Below are positions 52,112 through 62,157 of a DNA stretch of 64,000 bases, one piece after another. Numbering within the stretch: the first letter of the stretch is position 1; the number at the start of each line of letters is the position of its first letter. Origin of the DNA: Lactobacillus isalae (lineage in GTDB: Bacteria > Bacillota > Bacilli > Lactobacillales > Lactobacillaceae). The stretch is taken from positions 558,001 to 622,000 of the forward strand of contig NZ_OX443569.1 in the NCBI RefSeq assembly GCF_947539375.1. Reading direction: 5' to 3'. The notes under the pieces were generated by a model, which saw nothing but the letters and a program-made list of their open reading frames with translations, did no database searches and was not told the origin of the DNA. Position numbers and translations under genes: made by a program.

Positions 52112-53596
52112 ATGACGAAATTACCTAAAGATCCTTGGGATTTAAGAAAAGTATTACGTGAAATTAAAGATAACCCAGAAGATTATCATGAAACAAATAT
52201 TGAAATTGATCCAGACGCAGAAATTTCTGGTGTTTATCGCTACATTGGAGCAGGGGGCACCGTTGAAAGACCAACAAAAGAAGGGCCTGCAATGATGTTC
52301 AATAATTTAAAAGGTTTTCCTAATACTCGAGTATTAATTGGCTTAATGGCAAGCCGCAAACGAGATGGTCGAATTTTGCATCATGACTATAAGACTTTGG
52401 GGCGTTTCTTAAAAGATGCAGTTGAAAATCCAGTTCATCCAATCAAAGTTGATAAAAAAGATGCTCCTGCTCAAGAAGTTGTTCATTTAGCGAGTGATCC
52501 TGATTTTGATATTAGAAAATTAGTTCCAGCTCCAACTAATACTGAATATGATGCTGGTCCCTACATTACTTGTGGTCTAGTGAAAGGCTCAAATCCAGAT
52601 AAAACAATGACCGATGTAACAATTCACCGGATGGTATTAGAAGATAAAGATACGCTTGGAATGTATATTATGCCTGGCGGGCGTCATATTGGACATTTTC
52701 AAAAGGAATTTGAAAAATTAAATAAGCCTATGCCAATTACAATTAATATTGGTCTTGATCCAGCTGTTACAATTGGAGCAACTTTTGAACCTCCTACAAC
52801 GCCATTAGGCTATGATGAGCTAGACGTTGCTGGAGCTTTAAGACAAGAACCAGTTCAATTAGTTGATGGTGTTTCAGTCGATGAATCTGCTTTAGCTAGA
52901 AGTGAATATGTTCTTGAAGGCTATATTATGCCTAATGAAACGATTAAAGAAGATATTAACACTAATTCTGGTTTTGCTATGCCAGAATTTCCAGGATATA
53001 ACGGACCAGCTAATCCAGCTGTTAATGTAGTAAAAATTACCGCAGTTACTCACCGAAAAGACAATCCAATTATGCAATCTGTTATTGGACCAAGCGAAGA
53101 ACATGTTTCAATGGCTGGTATTCCAACAGAAGCTTCAATTTTAGAATTAGTTGATAAAGCTATTCCAGGAAAAGTCGTTAATGTTTACAATCCTCCTGCA
53201 GGTGGTGGTAAATTAATGACCATTATGCAAATTCATAAAGATAATCCAGCAGATGAGGGAATTCAAAGACAAGCTGCAATTTTGGCTTTTGGTGCATTCA
53301 AGGAATTGAAGACAGTTTGGTTAGTTGATGAAGACGTTGATATTTTTGATATGAATGATGTGGTTTGGACAATGAATACTCGCTTTCAAGCAGATCAAGA
53401 TTTTATTTGTATTCCAGGGATGCGTAACCATCCGCTTGATCCAAGCGAGCGCCCACAATATGATCCAAAATCAATTCGTGTTAAGGGAATGAGTTCTAAG
53501 ACTATTGTCGATGGAACAGTACCATTTGACATGAAAGATCAATTTATTCGCGCCAAGTTTAAAGAAATCCCTGATTGGGAAAAGTATTTGAAATAG
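52112..53596 (+). CDS. UbiD family decarboxylase
   Basis: A 494-residue prenyl-FMN-dependent (de)carboxylase. The DVTIHRM arginine and the SEYVLEGYI glutamates (E-x3-E) fit the R-E-E catalytic set; PGGRHIGHFQKEF and VTHRKDNPIMQSV are typical. The neighbouring ubiX and lpdD-like genes match the gallate/protocatechuate decarboxylase system of Lactiplantibacillus (LpdC). The substrate is probably an aromatic acid; which one is inference. Confidence 0.9.
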   Translation: MTKLPKDPWDLRKVLREIKDNPEDYHETNIEIDPDAEISGVYRYIGAGGTVERPTKEGPAMMFNNLKGFPNTRVLIGLMASRKRDGRILHHDYKTLGRFLKDAVENPVHPIKVDKKDAPAQEVVHLASDPDFDIRKLVPAPTNTEYDAGPYITCGLVKGSNPDKTMTDVTIHRMVLEDKDTLGMYIMPGGRHIGHFQKEFEKLNKPMPITINIGLDPAVTIGATFEPPTTPLGYDELDVAGALRQEPVQLVDGVSVDESALARSEYVLEGYIMPNETIKEDINTNSGFAMPEFPGYNGPANPAVNVVKITAVTHRKDNPIMQSVIGPSEEHVSMAGIPTEASILELVDKAIPGKVVNVYNPPAGGGKLMTIMQIHKDNPADEGIQRQAAILAFGAFKELKTVWLVDEDVDIFDMNDVVWTMNTRFQADQDFICIPGMRNHPLDPSERPQYDPKSIRVKGMSSKTIVDGTVPFDMKDQFIRAKFKEIPDWEKYLK

Positions 53597-53608
53597 GGTT
53601 GATTAGTT

Positions 53609-54178
53609 TTGAAAAAGATAGTAGTTGGAATTTCTGGTGCATCAGGTAGTATTTATGGCATTGATTTACTAGAAAAGTTGAGTAAAGTAACTAATTTTGA
53701 AACTCATTTAGTGATGAGCAATTGGGCCAAAGAAAATATTAAACTCGAAACTAACTATTCCGTAGCTGAAGTAGAAAATTTAGCAGATTTTGTATATGAT
53801 AATCAAAATTTAGGAGCTGCGATTGCTAGTGGTTCTTTCAGAGTTGATAGCATGGTTATTGCACCGGCTAGTATGAAGACTGTTGCCGGGATTAGTATTG
53901 GTTTTGACGAAGACTTAATTATGCGCGCTGCAAGTGTCATGCTTAAAGAGCAACGTAAATTAATCTTGGTTCCAAGAGAAACGCCACTATCGCCAATTCA
54001 CCTAGAAAATCTAACTAAGTTAGCTAAATTGGGTGTTCACATTATTCCACCTATTCCGTCTTTTTATGATCATCCAAAAACGATTCAAGATATCATCGAT
54101 CATCAAACAATGAAAGTTTTGGATAGTTTAGGAATTAAAAATAAAGTAGGCGAGCGCTGGAGCGGAGAAGATGCATAA
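53609..54178 (+). CDS. ubiX: Flavin prenyltransferase UbiX
   Basis: Makes the prenylated FMN cofactor of UbiD from FMN and dimethylallyl phosphate. The 189-residue protein has VVGISGASGSIYGIDLLEKL, the SGSFRVDSMVIAPASMKTVAGI region and LVPRETPLSPIHLEN. It starts at TTG (53609). It lies twelve bases after ubiD and overlaps the next gene by eight bases. In Lactiplantibacillus the counterpart is LpdB. Confidence 0.95.
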   Translation: MKKIVVGISGASGSIYGIDLLEKLSKVTNFETHLVMSNWAKENIKLETNYSVAEVENLADFVYDNQNLGAAIASGSFRVDSMVIAPASMKTVAGISIGFDEDLIMRAASVMLKEQRKLILVPRETPLSPIHLENLTKLAKLGVHIIPPIPSFYDHPKTIQDIIDHQTMKVLDSLGIKNKVGERWSGEDA

Positions 54179-54605
54179 AAAATTTTCAGTAAATAAGTTT
54201 GGCTATAGCATTAACGCACATGTTGAATTAATGAATAGCGACATGGTAGTTACTTTAACTGGTGGAGATGTACCACATCTCGGTGGAGTAGTGACTTATG
54301 ATTTTAAAACTAAAAAAATAGAAAAAGTTTATTTTGCGAGTCACGATGGGAGAAAACACAAAGATGTTTTTCTGGCAGAGAGCTTTGCCCAAAAGATTAT
54401 TTCTGATTTGTCTGGAAATTTATGCGTGACTGCTGGTATTCATATTGATGGAATTACGAAAGAACAAATTGATGCTTCTTTTGTAATGTGTGATGAATTA
54501 GGTGAGCAAGTTTTAAATTGGGTTGATCAAAAAATCAAAACGGCTAAGATTCCTAAGTACACTACTCATTTGAAACGCGATAAGAATGGCAAGTTAATAG
54601 ACTAG
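54171..54605 (+). CDS. LpdD-like prenylated-flavin chaperone/decarboxylase accessory protein
   Basis: A 144-residue protein with INAHVELMNSDMVVTLTGGD, PHLGGVVTYD and CVTAGIHIDGITKEQI. The third small gene in lpd-type decarboxylase clusters encodes a protein of this size and pattern, thought to help deliver prenyl-FMN or mature UbiD. Its start overlaps the end of ubiX by eight bases. The family call rests on context plus recalled pattern and could not be searched. Confidence 0.75.
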   Translation: MHKKFSVNKFGYSINAHVELMNSDMVVTLTGGDVPHLGGVVTYDFKTKKIEKVYFASHDGRKHKDVFLAESFAQKIISDLSGNLCVTAGIHIDGITKEQIDASFVMCDELGEQVLNWVDQKIKTAKIPKYTTHLKRDKNGKLID

Positions 54606-54615
54606 AGGAATTCAG

Positions 54616-55581
54616 ATGGCTAAGAAGTTTTTAAATTCAAAAGTAGTGGCTCAAATGCCACATGATTATGTAGAACCACAGACGATGACTTTTGATGAAT
54701 TCCCTGTTTCTGATTTACATCCAGAGGGAATGAAAATTTTAGATATTGAAGAAACAAACAAAGTTCCATCAGTGAATTTAAATGTAGTATATGCTCAAAA
54801 AGATGGTATGGATTTACATTTGAATATTATTGTTCCGGCATTAGAAAAGGATAGGGCAATTTACCCATTAATTATGTGGGTGCAGGGTTCTGCTTTCCAT
54901 AAACAAAATGTTAATGAGCATTTAGCTGATATGATTGAAGTAGCTAAAAATGGTTTTGTAGTAGCAATGGTAGAATACAGATATGCACCTAAATGGGCTT
55001 TTCCAGTACAAGTGCGTGATTTGAATACTGCAACTCGTTATATGCTAAATCATGCTAATACTTATCATATTGATCCTAAAAAATATATTGCGTGGGGCGA
55101 CTCATCAGGTGGTCATACCGTAAGTTTAGCTAGTGTGACTGAGAATAATCAGTTCTTTAGTGACGAGGATATTTTGGTTGAACCATTGTCTTTTAAAGCT
55201 TGCGTTGATTTTTATGGTCCTACTGATATTAGTCGCATGAATAAAGTTATATCCACTCAGGATCACGTAACTGCTCACAGCTTAGAAGGAGAATTTTTAG
55301 GTACAAGGAATGTTTACAAAAATCTCAAATTAGTCCAAAAAGCTAATCCGACTACTTATATTAAAAATAATATTCATATACCGCCGTTTTTAATAATGCA
55401 TGGTGATAAAGATAGATTTGTACCTTTTGAACAAAGTTGCTTGTTGTATGAGGTATTAAAGAAAAATAGTAAAAAAGTAAGATTTTATAAAATTGAAAAT
55501 TGTGACCATGCTTCGGGTAAATTTTATACGTCTGAGATAAGAAAGATTGTGATTGATTTTATTCGAAGGAGTTTTGAATAA
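54616..55581 (+). CDS. Alpha/beta hydrolase, probable carboxylesterase (BD-FAE-like)
   Basis: A 321-residue cytoplasmic esterase. The nucleophile elbow is WGDSSGGHT, the acid is probably Asp in GDKDRFVPF and the histidine lies in ENCDHASG. The oxyanion segment reads MWVQGSAFHKQ in place of HGGG. It is the last gene of the ubiD operon, eleven bases after the LpdD-like gene. An esterase feeding an aromatic acid decarboxylase suggests hydrolysis of phenolic esters; the substrate is inference. Confidence 0.85.
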   Translation: MAKKFLNSKVVAQMPHDYVEPQTMTFDEFPVSDLHPEGMKILDIEETNKVPSVNLNVVYAQKDGMDLHLNIIVPALEKDRAIYPLIMWVQGSAFHKQNVNEHLADMIEVAKNGFVVAMVEYRYAPKWAFPVQVRDLNTATRYMLNHANTYHIDPKKYIAWGDSSGGHTVSLASVTENNQFFSDEDILVEPLSFKACVDFYGPTDISRMNKVISTQDHVTAHSLEGEFLGTRNVYKNLKLVQKANPTTYIKNNIHIPPFLIMHGDKDRFVPFEQSCLLYEVLKKNSKKVRFYKIENCDHASGKFYTSEIRKIVIDFIRRSFE

Positions 55582-55613: not shown

Positions 55614-55648
55614 AAAAAGCAGTAAGAATTATTTCTTACTGCTCTTTT
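55614..55648. terminator. Bidirectional terminator
   Basis: AAGCAGTAAGAA pairs with TTCTTACTGCTT-type sequence (TTCTTACTGCTCTTTT), between convergent genes, with A and T runs. Confidence 0.88.
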
Positions 55649-56501
55649 CGTCTATAAATTTAATGAAATTCTCTTTTTCTGATATCTTAGAATGATTATT
55701 CAGAAAGCAAATTTCTATCTTAGCGTAAGTACTAGGTGTAATGGGGACTGTTTTTACTCCAGAAAAATTTTCTGGAATTAATTTGCTCATCAAAAGCGAA
55801 ATTCCGATTCCTTTTTGAACAAATTCTAGAATATTTTCAATATAGCGATCTGCATATATTACATTAGGAGTAAAGCCATTTTTTTGACATAAATTAATAC
55901 ATAGTTGATATGGTCGAGAATTAATAGGCTCCAAGATAAAATCTTCATTCTTTAAGTCAGTTAAATTTATTTGATCTTTATTTGCTAAAAAATGATTAGC
56001 TGGCAAAACTGCAACTAATTTATCTTGGCAATAAGGGAACATAGTAAATTTTTGGCTTTCCGGATTTTTGATAAAGGCAATATCTAGTTCGTTATTAAGC
56101 AATTTCTTTTCTAGTTGACTACTAGTATTGTTTTCAATTTTACAGTTAATCTTTGAATATCTCATAAAATCAAAGATTGTATTTAAAATATTATATTCTT
56201 TGGCAGAAGGAATTGTTCCGATCCTAAGTTTAGGAGCTATATTTTGTGTATCACGGATAGTATTGTCACACCGACTCTCAAGATCTTTTATTTGTAAGGC
56301 ATACTTCAAATAGATTTTTCCATAAGAAGTTAGAGAAATTCCCTGACTAGTTCGATTGAATAGTTTTACATTTAAATCTTCTTCAATTTTTTTAAGTTTT
56401 TTTGAAATAGATGATTGAGACATGTAGAGAGAATTAGCCGCATCTGAAAAGTTTTTATATCTAGCTAGAGCTAGAAATTCATTAATGTATTGTAATTTCA
56501 T
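55629..56501 (-). CDS. LysR family transcriptional regulator
   Basis: A 290-residue regulator. The helix-turn-helix is in FLALARYKNFSDAANSLYMS and SSISKKLKKIEEDLNVKLFNR. The effector domain starts at about 92 (KLRIGTIPSAKEYNI). It is divergent from the ceramidase-like/PTS operon, with 113 bases between the starts. Direct repeats of TAATTAGAATT in that gap are candidate binding sites. It is probably the local activator of the operon. Confidence 0.92.
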   Translation of the reverse strand: MKLQYINEFLALARYKNFSDAANSLYMSQSSISKKLKKIEEDLNVKLFNRTSQGISLTSYGKIYLKYALQIKDLESRCDNTIRDTQNIAPKLRIGTIPSAKEYNILNTIFDFMRYSKINCKIENNTSSQLEKKLLNNELDIAFIKNPESQKFTMFPYCQDKLVAVLPANHFLANKDQINLTDLKNEDFILEPINSRPYQLCINLCQKNGFTPNVIYADRYIENILEFVQKGIGISLLMSKLIPENFSGVKTVPITPSTYAKIEICFLNNHSKISEKENFIKFIDEKSSKK

Positions 56502-56537
56502 TTTTACCTCTATTCTTATCTAGAAACAGTGTATTCC

Positions 56538-56603
56538 TAATTAGAATTGCGAGTCAATACATCTATTAATTAGAATTAATAGTGAAGAGTGAAAGCGCTT
56601 AAG
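56538..56603 (+). promoter_or_regulatory. Candidate LysR sites and CcpA (cre) site of the ceramidase-like/PTS operon
   Basis: TAATTAGAATT occurs at 56538-56548 and 56567-56577, 29 bases apart. TGAAAGCGCTTAAG (56590-56603) matches the cre consensus TGWAANCGNTNWCA except at the last two bases. It overlaps the ribosome binding region, so CcpA would block expression when a preferred sugar is present. Confidence 0.7.
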
Positions 56604-56614
56604 GAGGTGGAGGC

Positions 56615-57841
56615 GTGAATATGGAATTAAAAGCAGGTTTTGGAAAAGCAGAACTACATATTACTCAGAAAGACTTACCTATTAGAGAATTTGAATCAAT
56701 AATACAACCTTTGACAACAAGAGTAGCAATCTTGGGTGAAAAAGAAAACAAATGCGTAATACTTTCAATTGATATGACGTCTTTGACTGATAGGGATGTC
56801 AAAAAAATAAAGAAAGAGGCAAATAAATTACTTAAGATTCCTAAAGAAAATATTTGGGTAACAGTAACTCATACTTTTTCAGCACCGCATTTAAAACATG
56901 AAATAAAAACAGAAAAAGATCAAAAGATCTATGATAGTTTTTTTAAGAAAATAGTTGAAAGTATAGAAAAAGCTATTGCAGAAGCAAAACAGGATTATCA
57001 AGACGTGCAAGTTGGATGGAATGAAATATTTTGTCCCTTGAACGTTAATAGAAATATTGAAACCCAAAAAGGTTGGTGGCTTGGTCGTAATTTTACAGAA
57101 TACAGTAATCATAAAGTTCGTATAATTGGCCTACAAGATAAAAGTGGAAGGACAAATCTACTTTATAACTATGACATTCAGCCAAGTGTTTTAGATCACA
57201 TTTGTGATGATAATGGGAAAAGAGTAATCTCTAGTGATATTTTTGGATATGCATCAATGCATGTTGAAGAGAGTTTAAAAAATGTTTCTATCCCTTTAAT
57301 TGGGGCAGCAGGTGATCAAATGCCTTTATTTAAGGGAAAAGCTACTAATTCATTTAATAAAAATCAAGCATTAGTAGTGAGCCAGGGTCAAGTTCTAACC
57401 CAAGTTCTCTTACAAGGAATTAATAGTTTGAGATTTAAAGATAAGTCGTTGATTAACACTTTTACGCTTAAGTGTAAATTACCAGCTCAAGTTCAAAAAC
57501 TTGGTACTTTTGAAATAAAGCCAACACATAAATATGAATTTGAAAAAACAACTTCAAAAGTGCTAGTTGACATAAAAGGAATACAAATAGGGGATTGTTT
57601 AATTTTAGGAACACAACCAGAGCTAAATAGTGAATTTGCAGCCAAAATTTCTGCTCTACTAAGAAAAGAAAAAGTAATGATTGTAACGCTGGTTGATGGA
57701 GCAAGAAAATATTTACCTGAGAAAAAAGACTTTGACCGCGTTACTTATCAAGCTATGAATACTTCAATTGGAAAAGATGCTGATCAGGAAATGTTAAAAG
57801 CCTTTACAAAAGTAAATGAATATTGGAAAGGAGAAAACTAA
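56615..57841 (+). CDS. Neutral/alkaline ceramidase-fold protein, first copy (degenerate zinc site)
   Basis: A 408-residue cytoplasmic protein (no signal peptide) resembling the N-terminal domain of neutral ceramidases: KAGFGKAELHITQ at the start, VTVTHTFSAPH (cf. THTHSGP) and LIGAAGDQMPLF. The second zinc histidine position (AVHPT in ceramidases) reads YDIQPSV, so that ligand is lost. The start is GTG (56615) after AAGGAGGTGG; the ATG at 56621 is also possible. Its stop overlaps the next start by one base. The substrate is unknown. Confidence 0.75.
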   Translation: MNMELKAGFGKAELHITQKDLPIREFESIIQPLTTRVAILGEKENKCVILSIDMTSLTDRDVKKIKKEANKLLKIPKENIWVTVTHTFSAPHLKHEIKTEKDQKIYDSFFKKIVESIEKAIAEAKQDYQDVQVGWNEIFCPLNVNRNIETQKGWWLGRNFTEYSNHKVRIIGLQDKSGRTNLLYNYDIQPSVLDHICDDNGKRVISSDIFGYASMHVEESLKNVSIPLIGAAGDQMPLFKGKATNSFNKNQALVVSQGQVLTQVLLQGINSLRFKDKSLINTFTLKCKLPAQVQKLGTFEIKPTHKYEFEKTTSKVLVDIKGIQIGDCLILGTQPELNSEFAAKISALLRKEKVMIVTLVDGARKYLPEKKDFDRVTYQAMNTSIGKDADQEMLKAFTKVNEYWKGEN

Positions 57842-59091
57842 TGTTAGTAGGACATGGAAGAGTTGATATAACTCCTAAAGGAGAATTTTATCTATTAGGT
57901 TATAAGACGGATTTAAGAAATCAGCCAGCTGCTGGAATTCATGATCATATCTATATCAATGCAATTTTATTCCATAACGAAAAAGGTGAGGAATGTTTTA
58001 TTGCAACTGGTGATTTGTTAGAGATAGAGGATATTGTAGCAGCAGATATTAAGCAAATACTAAGTAAAAAATATGATCTGCCAATGGAAAATATAATTAT
58101 TGGAGTGACACATGATCATCATTCTGTAAGAGATTATCATCGCACATGGGAATATGGAAAGTTTTCGCAAAAATATTATGATTTCTTTGTTGCGAGCTTT
58201 GTGCGAGCCTATGAACAATGTTTAAAAAATCTTGTGCCAGTTAAAGTAGAGTATGGACAGGATTTAGTATTAGGTTATTACGGTAATCGTGATCATAAGG
58301 GAAAACTATCGGACAACATTGTTTCTGTTATCAAATTTATGTATAACGACAAACCTATAGCAGGAATAGTTAATTTGGCCGTTCATTCAACAGTTTTAGG
58401 ATCCTCAAATAGATATCTTACTGCTGATTTAGCTGGAAATGTTTGCACACAATTGAAAAAGAAGTGGGGATTTTATCCATTAATGCTAATCGGATGTGCT
58501 GGCGATTCAAGCAATCGATACCAACGACAAGGAAGAGACTTTAAAGAATTGGAGCGAGTTTCAGTTGGTTTAGCGGATAAGATCAGCCAGATTAATGCTA
58601 ATAAAGTTGTAGATGTTGATCATGGCAAAATTCATTCGCTTACTTTGGCTCAAGAAATTATTAATGATAAGAAAACATATGATGCTTCATTAAGAGAGCT
58701 GATTGCAAGTATGAAGGCACATCCAGAGAAATCTGTTGGTTCCCAAAATGTTCAAAATGTAATAGAAAAATGTGAAAGTCAGTTAAAACAACCACAATTT
58801 CACGATATCTTGCAAATGGAAATTATTGATATTGGCGAGTTAAGAATATTCGTATTTCCTGGTGAACTTGCATCAGCAGGTGCAAAAGTTCTGCGGGCTT
58901 CTACTAATAAAACTGTTTTAATAGCGGGATATTCTAACGGTTTTCATTATTACTTTATGCAAGCTCAAGATTATGGTCTATCCTTTGAAAGCATTGGCAA
59001 TCCCGTGCCAGCAGGAACCTTCGAAGAAATTATCGCAAAATTTGTAAATGCTAGTCACTTGCTAGATGAATATGCAGAGAATTGTAATTAA
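57841..59091 (+). CDS. Neutral/alkaline ceramidase-fold hydrolase, second copy (zinc site intact)
   Basis: A 416-residue paralog of the preceding protein. It has GHGRVDITPKGEFYLLGYKT, VTHDHHSVRDYH (first zinc histidine), NLAVHSTVLGSS (second), FPGELASAGA (glutamate) and AGYSNGFHYY (tyrosine), so all four zinc-ligand positions of ceramidases can be matched. It is cytoplasmic, with no signal peptide. GAAAGGAGAA precedes the ATG at 57841. It probably hydrolyses an amide or related bond in a compound imported by the next gene product. Confidence 0.78.
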   Translation: MLVGHGRVDITPKGEFYLLGYKTDLRNQPAAGIHDHIYINAILFHNEKGEECFIATGDLLEIEDIVAADIKQILSKKYDLPMENIIIGVTHDHHSVRDYHRTWEYGKFSQKYYDFFVASFVRAYEQCLKNLVPVKVEYGQDLVLGYYGNRDHKGKLSDNIVSVIKFMYNDKPIAGIVNLAVHSTVLGSSNRYLTADLAGNVCTQLKKKWGFYPLMLIGCAGDSSNRYQRQGRDFKELERVSVGLADKISQINANKVVDVDHGKIHSLTLAQEIINDKKTYDASLRELIASMKAHPEKSVGSQNVQNVIEKCESQLKQPQFHDILQMEIIDIGELRIFVFPGELASAGAKVLRASTNKTVLIAGYSNGFHYYFMQAQDYGLSFESIGNPVPAGTFEEIIAKFVNASHLLDEYAENCN

Positions 59092-59166
59092 ATCATGAGT
59101 CGTGATTGGGACTCTCTAAAAGTCAATCAATAGATTAATAATTAATTGATTTAGAGGGTAAAAAAA

Positions 59167-61080
59167 ATGGATTATCAAGCATTAGGAAAAGAAATCTTAA
59201 AAGATGTTGGTGGCCCAGAAAATGTCGCAAGTATAACTCATTGTGTTACAAGAGTTAGATTCGTTTTAAAAGATGAAGGAAAAGCAAATGATAAAGCAAT
59301 CCAAAGTCTAAACGGTGTACTGCAGCTTGTTAAACAAGGCGGGCAATATCAAGTCGTAATTGGACCAAGTGTTGAAAAAGTTTACGATGCAATTATTGAT
59401 GCAGGTAAGTTTCCTGAAAGTGTAATTGGCGCAGGTGCAAATTCACACAATCAAAATTCTAACGAAAATAAGGGATGGTTTAATAAAGCATTAGGATTAA
59501 TTTCTACTATTTTTGCACCAATTTTAGGCTTGTTGTGCGGTGCAGGTATGATCAAAGCGGTTCTTTCGATTCTGCAAGTTACGCATGTGATTTCTCCAAC
59601 AGACGGAACTTATATGATTTTAAACGCTTTGGGCGACTCAGTATTCTATTTCTTCCCAGTAATTATTGGCTGGAGTGCAGCTAAAAAATTTAAATTGCCT
59701 GTATCTTATGGCATCATTTTAGGAGCAATTTTGATTTATCCAACCATTATTGCAGCTGCTGGTGCTAAAGGTTTAAAGACTATTTTTGCAGGCAGTATTT
59801 TTGCATTACATTATAAGGATACATTCTTCGGTATCCCAATTGCTTTACAAAATTATTCTAGTTCAGTTATTCCAGCGATTATTCTAATGTGGGTTGCAGG
59901 TTATATTTACCGCTATTTTAAGAAAGTAATTCCTGATGTCATCAAGATGGTATTTGTGCCATTTTTGACAATTATGGTTGCTGGAATTTTGGGATTACTT
60001 GTTATCGGTCCGGTTGCGATGATTTTACAAAATATGTTAAGTGGTTTCGTAATTTGGCTTGTTGGAATTAGTAAAGGATTAACTGGATTCTTCCTTGGTG
60101 CAAGCTGGAGTATCTTAGTTATGTTTGGTTTGCATTGGGCAGTTATTCCGTTTTTCGCAATCGATGTAGCAAAGTATGGATATGATGTGATCAATCCTTT
60201 AATTTTCGCTGGTGCATTGGCTGTTTTAGGTTCTACATTAGGTATTGCTATTCGTACTAAGAATAAAGATACTCGTACAATGTCAATTGCAGCTGCAGTT
60301 TCTTCGTTCTTTGGTGTAAGTGAACCTGCCTTGTACGGGGTATTAGTACCACGTAAATGGGTTATGCTTACTTCATTTTTGGGCGCTGGAATTGGTGGCG
60401 CAATCGCAGGTTTTGGTGGTGCAAAGTTATATTCTTTCGGTGCTAATGGTATTTTAGGATTGCCTTGTTTTATCAATCCTAAAGGAGTTGATACTGGATT
60501 TATCTGTTTATGTTTAAGTGGGGTAGTTGCCTTCTTCTTCTCTTTAATCACTGCTTTAGTTATTGGTGATAAAAAAGGTTCGATTGAAGCTATTTCTACT
60601 AAAGCTGATGAAAAGAAAAGTAAAGTTGCCGAAGTCTATGCTCCATGTAAAGGAGTTGCCAAAGATTTAACGTCAGTTAATGATAAAGTATTTTCTAGTT
60701 TAACTATGGGAGACGGTATTGCAATTACACCAACAGAGGGAAAAATTTATTCTCCTGTAAATGGGATTGTACGCGTAGCTTATAAGACGGGGCATGCGAT
60801 TGGAATTGCTGGTGAAAACGGTGAAGAGCTTTTAATTCACATTGGAATAGATACAGTTAATTTGAATGGAAAGTATTTCCATAGTCATGTAAATCAAGGA
60901 ATGAAAGTTAAGAGAGGACAATTATTAGTTGATTTTGATTTAGAAAAAATTAAGGAAGCAGGATATGATCCAACTGTTATGGTAATTATTACTAAAACAG
61001 ATAATCTGAAGAGTGTCACTCCAAATGAGATGGGACCTGTTAATCCCGAAAATGAAATATTGAAAGTAAGTTTAGATTAA
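59167..61080 (+). CDS. PTS system IIBCA component, glucose/beta-glucoside superfamily
   Basis: Imports and phosphorylates a sugar-like substrate. Of the 637 residues, about 1-85 are IIB with phosphorylated Cys26 (ITHCVTRVRF), about 105-465 are IIC with about ten membrane helices, and about 490-637 are IIA with His558 (LLIHIGID). The order matches BglP/TreP-type permeases. No phospho-glycosidase is in the operon. AGAGGG precedes the ATG; a hairpin (ATTGATT arm at 59145-59151) partly covers it. No LicT-type antiterminator site was found. Confidence 0.93.
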   Translation: MDYQALGKEILKDVGGPENVASITHCVTRVRFVLKDEGKANDKAIQSLNGVLQLVKQGGQYQVVIGPSVEKVYDAIIDAGKFPESVIGAGANSHNQNSNENKGWFNKALGLISTIFAPILGLLCGAGMIKAVLSILQVTHVISPTDGTYMILNALGDSVFYFFPVIIGWSAAKKFKLPVSYGIILGAILIYPTIIAAAGAKGLKTIFAGSIFALHYKDTFFGIPIALQNYSSSVIPAIILMWVAGYIYRYFKKVIPDVIKMVFVPFLTIMVAGILGLLVIGPVAMILQNMLSGFVIWLVGISKGLTGFFLGASWSILVMFGLHWAVIPFFAIDVAKYGYDVINPLIFAGALAVLGSTLGIAIRTKNKDTRTMSIAAAVSSFFGVSEPALYGVLVPRKWVMLTSFLGAGIGGAIAGFGGAKLYSFGANGILGLPCFINPKGVDTGFICLCLSGVVAFFFSLITALVIGDKKGSIEAISTKADEKKSKVAEVYAPCKGVAKDLTSVNDKVFSSLTMGDGIAITPTEGKIYSPVNGIVRVAYKTGHAIGIAGENGEELLIHIGIDTVNLNGKYFHSHVNQGMKVKRGQLLVDFDLEKIKEAGYDPTVMVIITKTDNLKSVTPNEMGPVNPENEILKVSLD

Positions 61081-61096
61081 ATTTGGAGGCACAATA

Positions 61097-62122
61097 ATGA
61101 TTATTGATGCTAATGTATATTGGTTACCAAAAGAATTTTTTAGTGAAGATGGATATTTAGAGCAATTTTTGTCTGAGGTTAATACAGGTAAGGATGTAAA
61201 AGCTATAGTTGAGAATGATGATAATGATCTTCATAAGATTGTGATTGAGCAGCCAATTGGTCAACCTAGTCTTGACTATTTTGAGAAAGATTATGCCTTA
61301 AATTATATGATAGCTCATTTAAATAAAGCTAAGGTTAAAAAAGCAATTTTGAAGATGCCTGGTTGTCAAGAGTGGCTTAGCCTGGACTTATGCAAAGTTT
61401 ATAATCGATTACTTGCTAAATTTGTTAAAAATAGTCAGGGGAGAATGGTAGGTTTAGCAGTAGTTCCACCTTACCCAACTGAAGAAAATTTAAAAGAATT
61501 AGATTATGCAATTAATGAATTAGGTCTAAAAGGGTTGCAGCTGTCAACGCATTATGGTGATGGATATTTAGACAATACAGTTTATAGAGAATTTTTCAAA
61601 TATGTTGATAAGCTTGGCATCCCAGTGTATATTCACCATACTCCTGTACCAATTGAATATAATTCAATTAAAGATTATGAAAACGTTAGAAGGGCATATG
61701 GTAGATGCGAAGATCAAATAATTGCTATTAGTAGGGAAGTGTACAGTACATTATTTGACGATTGCCCAAATTTACATTTGATTCATTCAATGTTAGGCGG
61801 TGGATACTTTACATATAAGACAATGCTTCTTCCACATGATTCTGGCAATGGAAGATTTGATACTAGTAAAACTGAGGCAATAAAGCAACATATGGATCAA
61901 AATATCTATTATGAAATGTCACATGCTCAGCCATGGGGGACAGATAATTTAGAAGTAGCAATTAAAATTTTAGGAGCAAATAAAATTATTTATGGTTCTT
62001 CTTATCCAGTAAAAGAATCTTGGTTAATAAACGGACCAACAATGATAAAAAGCTTGAATATAAGGGAAAAATATAAAGATAAAATTTTAGAAGATAATGC
62101 GATAAACGCTTATCAATTATAA
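61097..62122 (+). CDS. Amidohydrolase-related protein (Amidohydro_2 family) with altered metal site
   Basis: A 341-residue TIM-barrel protein of the ACMSD/decarboxylase type: VGLAVVPPYPTEENLKELD, then GLKGLQLSTHYGDGYLD and VYIHHTP, LIHSMLGGGYF and IIYGSSYPVKE. The first metal motif HxH reads DANVYWLP and the final metal aspartate (GSDxP) reads GSSYP, so three usual ligands are missing while two histidines remain. GGAGG lies upstream. It is the last gene of the operon and probably processes the PTS product. Confidence 0.85.
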   Translation: MIIDANVYWLPKEFFSEDGYLEQFLSEVNTGKDVKAIVENDDNDLHKIVIEQPIGQPSLDYFEKDYALNYMIAHLNKAKVKKAILKMPGCQEWLSLDLCKVYNRLLAKFVKNSQGRMVGLAVVPPYPTEENLKELDYAINELGLKGLQLSTHYGDGYLDNTVYREFFKYVDKLGIPVYIHHTPVPIEYNSIKDYENVRRAYGRCEDQIIAISREVYSTLFDDCPNLHLIHSMLGGGYFTYKTMLLPHDSGNGRFDTSKTEAIKQHMDQNIYYEMSHAQPWGTDNLEVAIKILGANKIIYGSSYPVKESWLINGPTMIKSLNIREKYKDKILEDNAINAYQL

Positions 62123-62127
62123 TTTTG

Positions 62128-62157
62128 AAAGGTCAAAGCTATACTTTGATCTTTTTT
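62128..62157 (+). terminator. Rho-independent terminator of the ceramidase-like/PTS operon
   Basis: AAAGGTCAAAG pairs with CTTTGATCTTT and runs into six T residues. Confidence 0.88.

Follow-up and report, generated by a model that had tools for sequence, protein, structure and literature searches.

In a 64,000-nucleotide stretch of the Lactobacillus isalae contig NZ_OX443569.1 (positions 558,001 to 622,000; hereafter, the window), four genes on the plus strand bring together two ceramidase-fold proteins, CerA and CerB, with a phosphotransferase system (PTS) permease and an amidohydrolase-2-fold protein (AH). The cerA gene (56615-57841; 408 amino acids, GTG start) is followed by cerB (57841-59091; 416 amino acids from the ATG at 57841), the gene for the PTS IIBCA permease (59167-61080), and the AH gene (61097-62122), with spacings of -1, 75, and 16 bases, so that the start codon of cerB overlaps the cerA stop codon by one base. 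A LysR-family regulator gene, with Pfam HTH_1 and LysR_substrate domains over cut-off, is divergently oriented upstream (55629-56501, minus strand), and a terminator-like stem-loop with a stem of 12 pairs closes the cluster (62127-62155, plus strand); five terminator-like stems of this type were found in the stretch, versus 2.5 expected. The four genes, their gaps, the divergent regulator, the terminator, and a site resembling a catabolite-responsive element (cre) had all been described in an initial annotation of this DNA, and our analysis confirms them.

Fourteen records carry the gene set, so the cluster is not due to chance. A conserved gene neighborhood had been set beforehand as a test by the initial annotation, and with 14 carrying records the cluster is a conserved catabolic operon. 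Carriers in the genus Lactobacillus are the window, an uncultured Lactobacillus (locus L037), and L. colini (L038); those in other Lactobacillaceae are Companilactobacillus formosensis (L026, on a contig shared with L039) and loci L025, L027, L028, L029, L030, and L031. Outside this family, the cluster was found in Streptococcus gallolyticus (L040), Streptococcus orisratti (L041), a megaplasmid of Enterococcus raffinosus (L023; two further E. raffinosus records match), and one further Lactobacillales genome (L053). The cerB, PTS, and AH genes are present in all 14 records and cerA in 13, being not seen in L028, where a contig edge cuts the cluster; the LysR gene is adjacent in 11 of the 14, and the AH gene stands either first or last. 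Strong matches (E below 1e-100; own genome excluded) were obtained in 7 of 350 family, 2 of 395 order, and 2 of 61 genus genomes, these samples being overlapping. At E<=1e-30, the CerB alignment returned the window's own genome in both the class and the phylum sample and, in the class sample only, S. gallolyticus G408 (totals, 2 of 348 and 1 of 348 genomes), while searching with AH (E<=1e-20) returned 2 of 198 order genomes, both carrying the operon. No carrier beyond Lactobacillales was present among the sampled genomes (class and phylum samples, 348 each), and a motif scan of viral contigs gave no match. The operon is sporadic and rare yet conserved in Lactobacillales.

The four products have not diverged to the same extent. 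In the Streptococcus and Enterococcus copies, identity to the window is 62-67% for CerB, 61-65% for the PTS permease, 45-46% for AH, and 26-29% for CerA, and the median end branch is longest for cerA (0.62), compared with 0.20 for AH and 0.15 for both cerB and the PTS gene. An exchange of modules, with cerB and the PTS gene close and cerA and AH distant, is not claimed, as the trees showed no well-supported conflict. With families assigned by Pfam, the only extra genes inside the co-directional run across the 14 records encode the surface proteins x497 and x586. These proteins (L037:5608-7101 and L040:12256-14016) are 30% homologous and adjoin the PTS gene in two lineages; neither belongs to a Pfam family, one has a signal peptide and the other is lipoprotein-like, and among 12 operon genomes only the L037 and L040 lineages gave a match.

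CerB matches the Pfam family Ceramidase_alk (PF04734) with 65 bits against a cut-off of 32.1. Its score against the equivalog-level neutral ceramidase model NF041649, 23 bits versus a cut-off of 1200, is so low that it is a relative in fold and not a ceramidase by that model. CerA stays under the PF04734 cut-off, at 25.3 bits. A cerA profile of 13 rows nevertheless matches the human neutral ceramidase 4wgk (E=4.1e-9), the remaining nine matches all being to ribosomal L23 with E of at least 0.05, and hhalign of the cerA and cerB alignments gave 99.3%; together, these two results indicate that CerA is kin to the neutral ceramidases despite its Pfam score. None of CerA, CerB, and AH begins with a hydrophobic segment, in line with the earlier proposal that the ceramidase-fold proteins lack an export signal.

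Active-site columns were mapped by alignment to solved ceramidases at His97, His99, His204, Ser250, Glu411, and Tyr448 of 2zws, which we take to be zinc ligands or catalytic residues. CerB retains all six in 12 of 12 rows (H91, H93, H182, S224, E342, and Y371). Of the six, CerA retains those at His97, Glu411, and Tyr448 in all 13 rows, and in all 13 the His99 column is Phe; the His204 column is Gln in 12 rows and Pro in one, and only two of the 13 rows have Ser in the Ser250 column, which adjoins an invariant Asp-Gln. Aligned in this way, CerB appears to have an intact site of the neutral-ceramidase type, whereas that of CerA is apparently altered and bears an invariant signature of its own. 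The view that both proteins are working hydrolases of the known type is not supported, the catalytic set being retained by CerB alone. For the human neutral ceramidase, His196, Tyr579, and Ser354 are named in a review (PMC6952831). The two ceramidase-fold proteins are half as large as the neutral ceramidases (PF04734; PDB 2zws and 4wgk), with which they share catalytic-domain kinship, and differ from them further in having no signal peptide and in lying within a PTS operon; ceramide is a most unlikely substrate. The CerA signature is also carried by plasmid proteins of Klebsiella and Pantoea that begin with SRRHF, a twin-arginine-like start, suggesting that it marks an older subfamily and not recent decay. 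On these plasmids (L069:8905-11737 and L070:8902-11753), the gene for the CerA-type protein is adjoined by a TetR gene and an EstA/PHB-type esterase gene.

AH belongs to Amidohydro_2 (PF04909; 76.6 bits versus a cut-off of 26.4), and its best profile matches are 4qs5, 4inf, 4icm, and 3nur. In all 14 rows, N6-x-Y8 replaces HxH, M232 replaces the catalytic His, and S302 replaces the metal Asp; numerous further polar residues, among them His180, are invariant. The metal Asp and the catalytic His are both present in three canonical relatives; their N-terminal motifs are HxH (L076), ExH (L077), and ExA (L078), and since only L076 has HxH, the N-terminal part of the residue mapping is weaker. A Thioclava relative (37%) has the Asn and the Ser as in AH, but His in the Tyr position. 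Its annotated start (L068:8986-10038) removes a conserved IDAN-x-H-W N-terminus, which an upstream reading recovers. Because HxH, Asp, and catalytic His are all replaced, AH is, as judged from the alignment, not a classical metal amidohydrolase, and a reading of it as a normal amidohydrolase is not supported. The same replacements, present in 14 of 14 rows, set it apart from the ACMSD, LigW, and gamma-resorcylate decarboxylases, with which it has fold-level sequence kinship.

Replacement of catalytic residues in all 13 CerA and all 14 AH rows, together with the long end branches of cerA, would also fit a situation in which neither protein is catalytic, CerA being a pseudoenzyme subunit or sensor and AH a binding or scaffold protein. 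We regard this as unlikely. Many polar residues of AH other than those replaced are invariant, and the CerA signature is found in Enterobacterales with no cerB match on the plasmid, indicating that CerA can exist without CerB.

The permease matches the beta-glucoside IIABC model TIGR01995 (659 bits versus a cut-off of 614.7), has the domain order B-C-A with the corresponding Pfam domains, and possesses the EIIB Cys26 and EIIA His558 motifs. By profile and domains it is assigned to the beta-glucoside subfamily of IIBCA permeases, which bears out the import by a PTS proposed in the initial annotation. In L053, the PTS protein is instead a lactose/cellobiose-type EIIC, and cerA, cerB, and AH are retained; since the permease type has been swapped there while these three were kept, the unit appears to consist of transport plus these three genes.

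Upstream of the first gene, a dyad, ATTC-N7-GAAT, forms a candidate LysR operator (56533-56547). LysR-type operators follow the pattern T-N11-A. Of 13 upstream regions, 11 contain the dyad exactly and 12 with at most one mismatch, while dinucleotide shuffles of these regions gave a mean of 1.86 and a maximum of 6 of 13; the motif was picked by eye on those same 13 regions, several of which are mutually related. In the two streptococci, the dyad lies immediately upstream of AH, after LicT, PTS IIBC, and YdjC genes, which probably form a separate unit. The cre-like site at 56590-56603 on the plus strand, TGAAAGCGCTTAAG, has 2 mismatches relative to TGWAARCGYTTWCA and was matched or bettered in 4 of 200 mononucleotide shuffles of its region. 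Sites with at most 3 mismatches occur in all regions but those of L029 and L038 (11 of 13), with up to 17% of shuffles of a region scoring equally well. Operator-like dyad and cre-like site are thus conserved across copies as candidates for LysR and CcpA control; the catabolite-type control suggested earlier is upheld by cre-like sites in this and other loci, and the dyad supports control of the LysR type.

A conserved, covarying RNA structure precedes the PTS gene. Comparison of the cerB-PTS spacers by eye exposed a candidate H-type pseudoknot (59097-59129, plus strand), in which a GAGYC/GRCUC stem (59097-59101 with 59110-59114) encloses a loop that pairs with a CRAUYA-type stretch 3' of the stem (59103-59108 with 59124-59129). 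It occupies the cerB-PTS junction in 10 of the 14 loci and is absent from L037, L029, L030, and L053. In the spacers of two of these (L029:11393-11455 and L030:9657-9720), a cre-like TGAAAGCGCTTTA stands in its place. In the nine rows used for covariation (L038, with a loop one base shorter, was excluded), 94.9% of cells are paired and 4 of 11 pairs are altered on both sides, a number reached in 3 of 500 shuffles; slid registers gave at most one double-changed pair and at most 56.6% of cells paired. The number of pair types was unremarkable (136 of 500 shuffles). A scan for H-type pseudoknots recovered the element in 8 of 13 spacers, missing L028 and L023, with bounds set after the motif had been seen, so that the scan is not independent. 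A covariance model gave one strong site (E<=7.6e-6) in 7 of 12 operon genomes, each at the cerB-PTS junction and each a training sequence; L. colini was missed, and all other matches had E of at least 0.98. A plain conserved hairpin was rejected: folded alone, the spacer hairpin reaches a z score of -3.5 in the window, and for 8 further loci the score ranges from +0.65 to -2.81. Rfam gave three chance-level matches on 501 window bases (E of at least 2, minus strand) and none at E<=5 on three small loci.

The Shine-Dalgarno sequence of the PTS gene can pair with the 3' strand of stem 1 and the bases that follow it, a pairing that would compete with the pseudoknot in seven loci of Lactobacillaceae (-8.1 to -12.3 kcal/mol; P value from shuffles, 0 to 0.087) and is weak in L040, L041, and L023 (-4.2 to -6.0 kcal/mol; P value, 0.09 to 0.32). 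We therefore regard the element as a candidate translational switch; a riboswitch is not proven. The preQ1-I element is a small pseudoknot riboswitch, and the structure described here resembles that kind in size, H-type topology, and the alternative Shine-Dalgarno pairing in seven loci, differing in having no Rfam match in the stretches searched and in being internal to an operon. A fuller scheme, in which the permease of a PTS-coupled pathway with a ceramidase-fold enzyme and remodelled CerA and AH is placed under a new pseudoknot riboswitch sensing a pathway compound, is doubtful.

The reading that we favor, with a probability of roughly 0.45, is that the operon serves LysR- and CcpA-controlled PTS import and phosphorylation of a sugar conjugate, followed by cytoplasmic hydrolysis by CerB. 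The LysR regulator would activate the operon when the substrate is present, and CcpA would repress it on preferred sugars. The permease would take in and phosphorylate the conjugate, and CerB, as a predicted cytoplasmic Zn-dependent hydrolase of the neutral-ceramidase type, would split an acyl bond, with an amide between hydroxyls as the likeliest target, to release a sugar phosphate for glycolysis. Retention of the CerB site and the predicted cytoplasmic location of the protein suggest that the acyl bond is on the PTS-phosphorylated compound. CerA, presumably translationally coupled to CerB and faster evolving, may be a subunit that partners CerB or else a further enzyme whose chemistry is altered; AH, lacking the usual metal site, may process the non-sugar part once released, and the pseudoknot may tune PTS translation relative to cerB. 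As substrates, we consider an N-acyl amino sugar, a phenolic conjugate, and an ordinary glycoside to be candidates. By analogy, the amide-bearing carbon of ceramide sits between two hydroxylated carbons, as it would in an N-acyl-2-amino sugar, and an N-acylated or amide-linked sugar is possible. In favor of the proposed pathway are the recurrence of the gene set, the retention of cerA, cerB, and AH where the permease type is exchanged, the invariant CerB columns, the lack of an export signal, the dyad and cre-like sites, and the pseudoknot; in addition, other ceramidase-fold genes accompany amino-sugar-type genes, EIIC and RpiR genes, or, in L054, a PTS IIBC gene. Several points weigh against it: the active-site statements for CerA, CerB, and AH come from sequence alignment; no reaction is assignable to CerA and AH, two of the four products; some copies are decaying, cerB being interrupted in L031 and the PTS gene split in L027 and L030; and two glycoside hydrolase family 1 (GH1) genes flank the C. 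formosensis cluster.

The last point qualifies the earlier statement that no glycosidase is present, which is true of the co-directional genes across the 14 records. It also raises the possibility that a plain beta-glucoside is imported and cleaved by a phospho-beta-glucosidase encoded elsewhere, with the ceramidase-fold and AH genes modifying the aglycone or being only loosely connected. The PTS subfamily, with its score over the beta-glucoside cut-off, and the GH1 genes on both sides of the C. formosensis cluster, one of them on the opposite strand beside a PTS gene of its own, point to such an ordinary glycoside. Lactobacilli often have several phospho-beta-glucosidases. On the other hand, the gene run itself is free of glycosidases, GH1 was found in only 1 of 7 loci whose neighbors were scanned, in part, and cerA, cerB, and AH persist when the permease type changes. 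In light of the C. formosensis pair, we reduced the probability of the favored reading from 0.5 to 0.45; the plain glycoside is improbable. With beta-glucoside PTS operons of the bgl type, the operon shares the IIBCA permease and cre-like control; here, LysR and not LicT adjoins, and the run is without a phospho-beta-glucosidase.

A phenolic acyl glycoside or ester would be another sugar conjugate, with the imported phosphosugar ester hydrolyzed by CerB in the role of an esterase and the phenolic part acted on by CerA and AH. The kinship of AH to LigW, gamma-resorcylate, and ACMSD decarboxylases, the Thioclava and Agrobacterium neighborhoods, and the co-occurrence of a UbiD-type gene suggest phenolics and speak against an amino sugar. 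The Thioclava AH relative clusters with FAD monooxygenase, fumarylacetoacetate hydrolase-family, and dienelactone hydrolase-family genes; ceramidase-fold genes adjoin EstA/PHB-type esterase genes on Klebsiella, Pantoea, and Agrobacterium plasmids, and a subtype B tannase gene is near one on an Agrobacterium plasmid. An orthologue of the UbiD-type hydroxyarylate decarboxylase encoded at 52112-53596 of the window is present in 10 of 12 operon genomes versus 63 of 231 family genomes (Fisher P value of 6e-5 by genome and 0.018 by genus, statistics that ignore phylogeny). However, the association leaves kinship out of account, UbiD is unlinked to the operon in the approximately 10 kb around other copies, no dyad was found upstream of the window's UbiD cluster, and the residues used by the decarboxylase relatives are lost in AH. 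We consider this explanation rather improbable.

Under the favored reading of PTS import and hydrolysis by CerB, the operon would function in the manner of chb, a PTS-plus-deacylase operon, without being a member of that system. The chb operon of E. coli combines a PTS with the ChbG/YdjC deacetylase. Common to both would be PTS import and then deacylation of a phosphorylated sugar, and a YdjC gene precedes the cluster in two streptococci, although there the dyad follows YdjC, which is probably a separate unit. The hydrolase folds are unrelated, no chb glycosidase is present here, and chb has no kin of CerA and AH. Among the open-licence PubMed Central articles listed on ceramidase-fold genes with PTS or sugar genes, on gallate with PTS, on ceramidase residues, and on pseudoknot RNAs near PTS genes, no title or abstract opening described such an operon. 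What is new here comprises the retained CerB site beside an altered CerA site with its own signature, the replaced residues in AH, the LysR-type dyad upstream, and the candidate pseudoknot in the cerB-PTS spacer, and the operon suggests an undescribed route to the use of some sugar conjugate. If this is true, the ceramidase fold gains a role in sugar-conjugate catabolism within food and gut bacteria, two enzyme subfamilies are defined whose chemistry cannot be inferred from relatives, and the ligand of a small RNA could reveal the substrate. Searches for the signatures of CerA and AH are easy, which makes the question directly testable.

Ceramidase-fold genes were also seen in other settings. 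Alphaproteobacterial plasmids of Devosia, Microvirga, and Nitratireductor (L065, L066, and L067) carry operons with NagB-like, SIS, NagA-like amidohydrolase, and ceramidase-fold genes plus a sugar ABC (ATP-binding cassette) transporter, gene families having been checked for Devosia only. In L054 (5489-9939), a ceramidase-fold gene is bordered on one side by a PTS IIBC gene and on the other by MlrC/M81 family, M24-type, and EamA transporter genes. The window's own genome has a third, divergent ceramidase-fold gene (G000:C1:225652-226779; L024:9644-10903) that faces a lactose/cellobiose-type EIIC gene and an RpiR-SIS gene; this EIIC-RpiR arrangement was found in 6 of 7 loci, the others being L032, L033, L034, L036, and L060, and not in L035. 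Just before the operon (52112-55581), the window has a row of four genes, encoding UbiD (VdcC-like), UbiX (VdcB-like), a PAC_bac-domain protein, and a BD-FAE esterase, which resembles a gallate-type hydroxyarylate decarboxylase cluster that includes an esterase.

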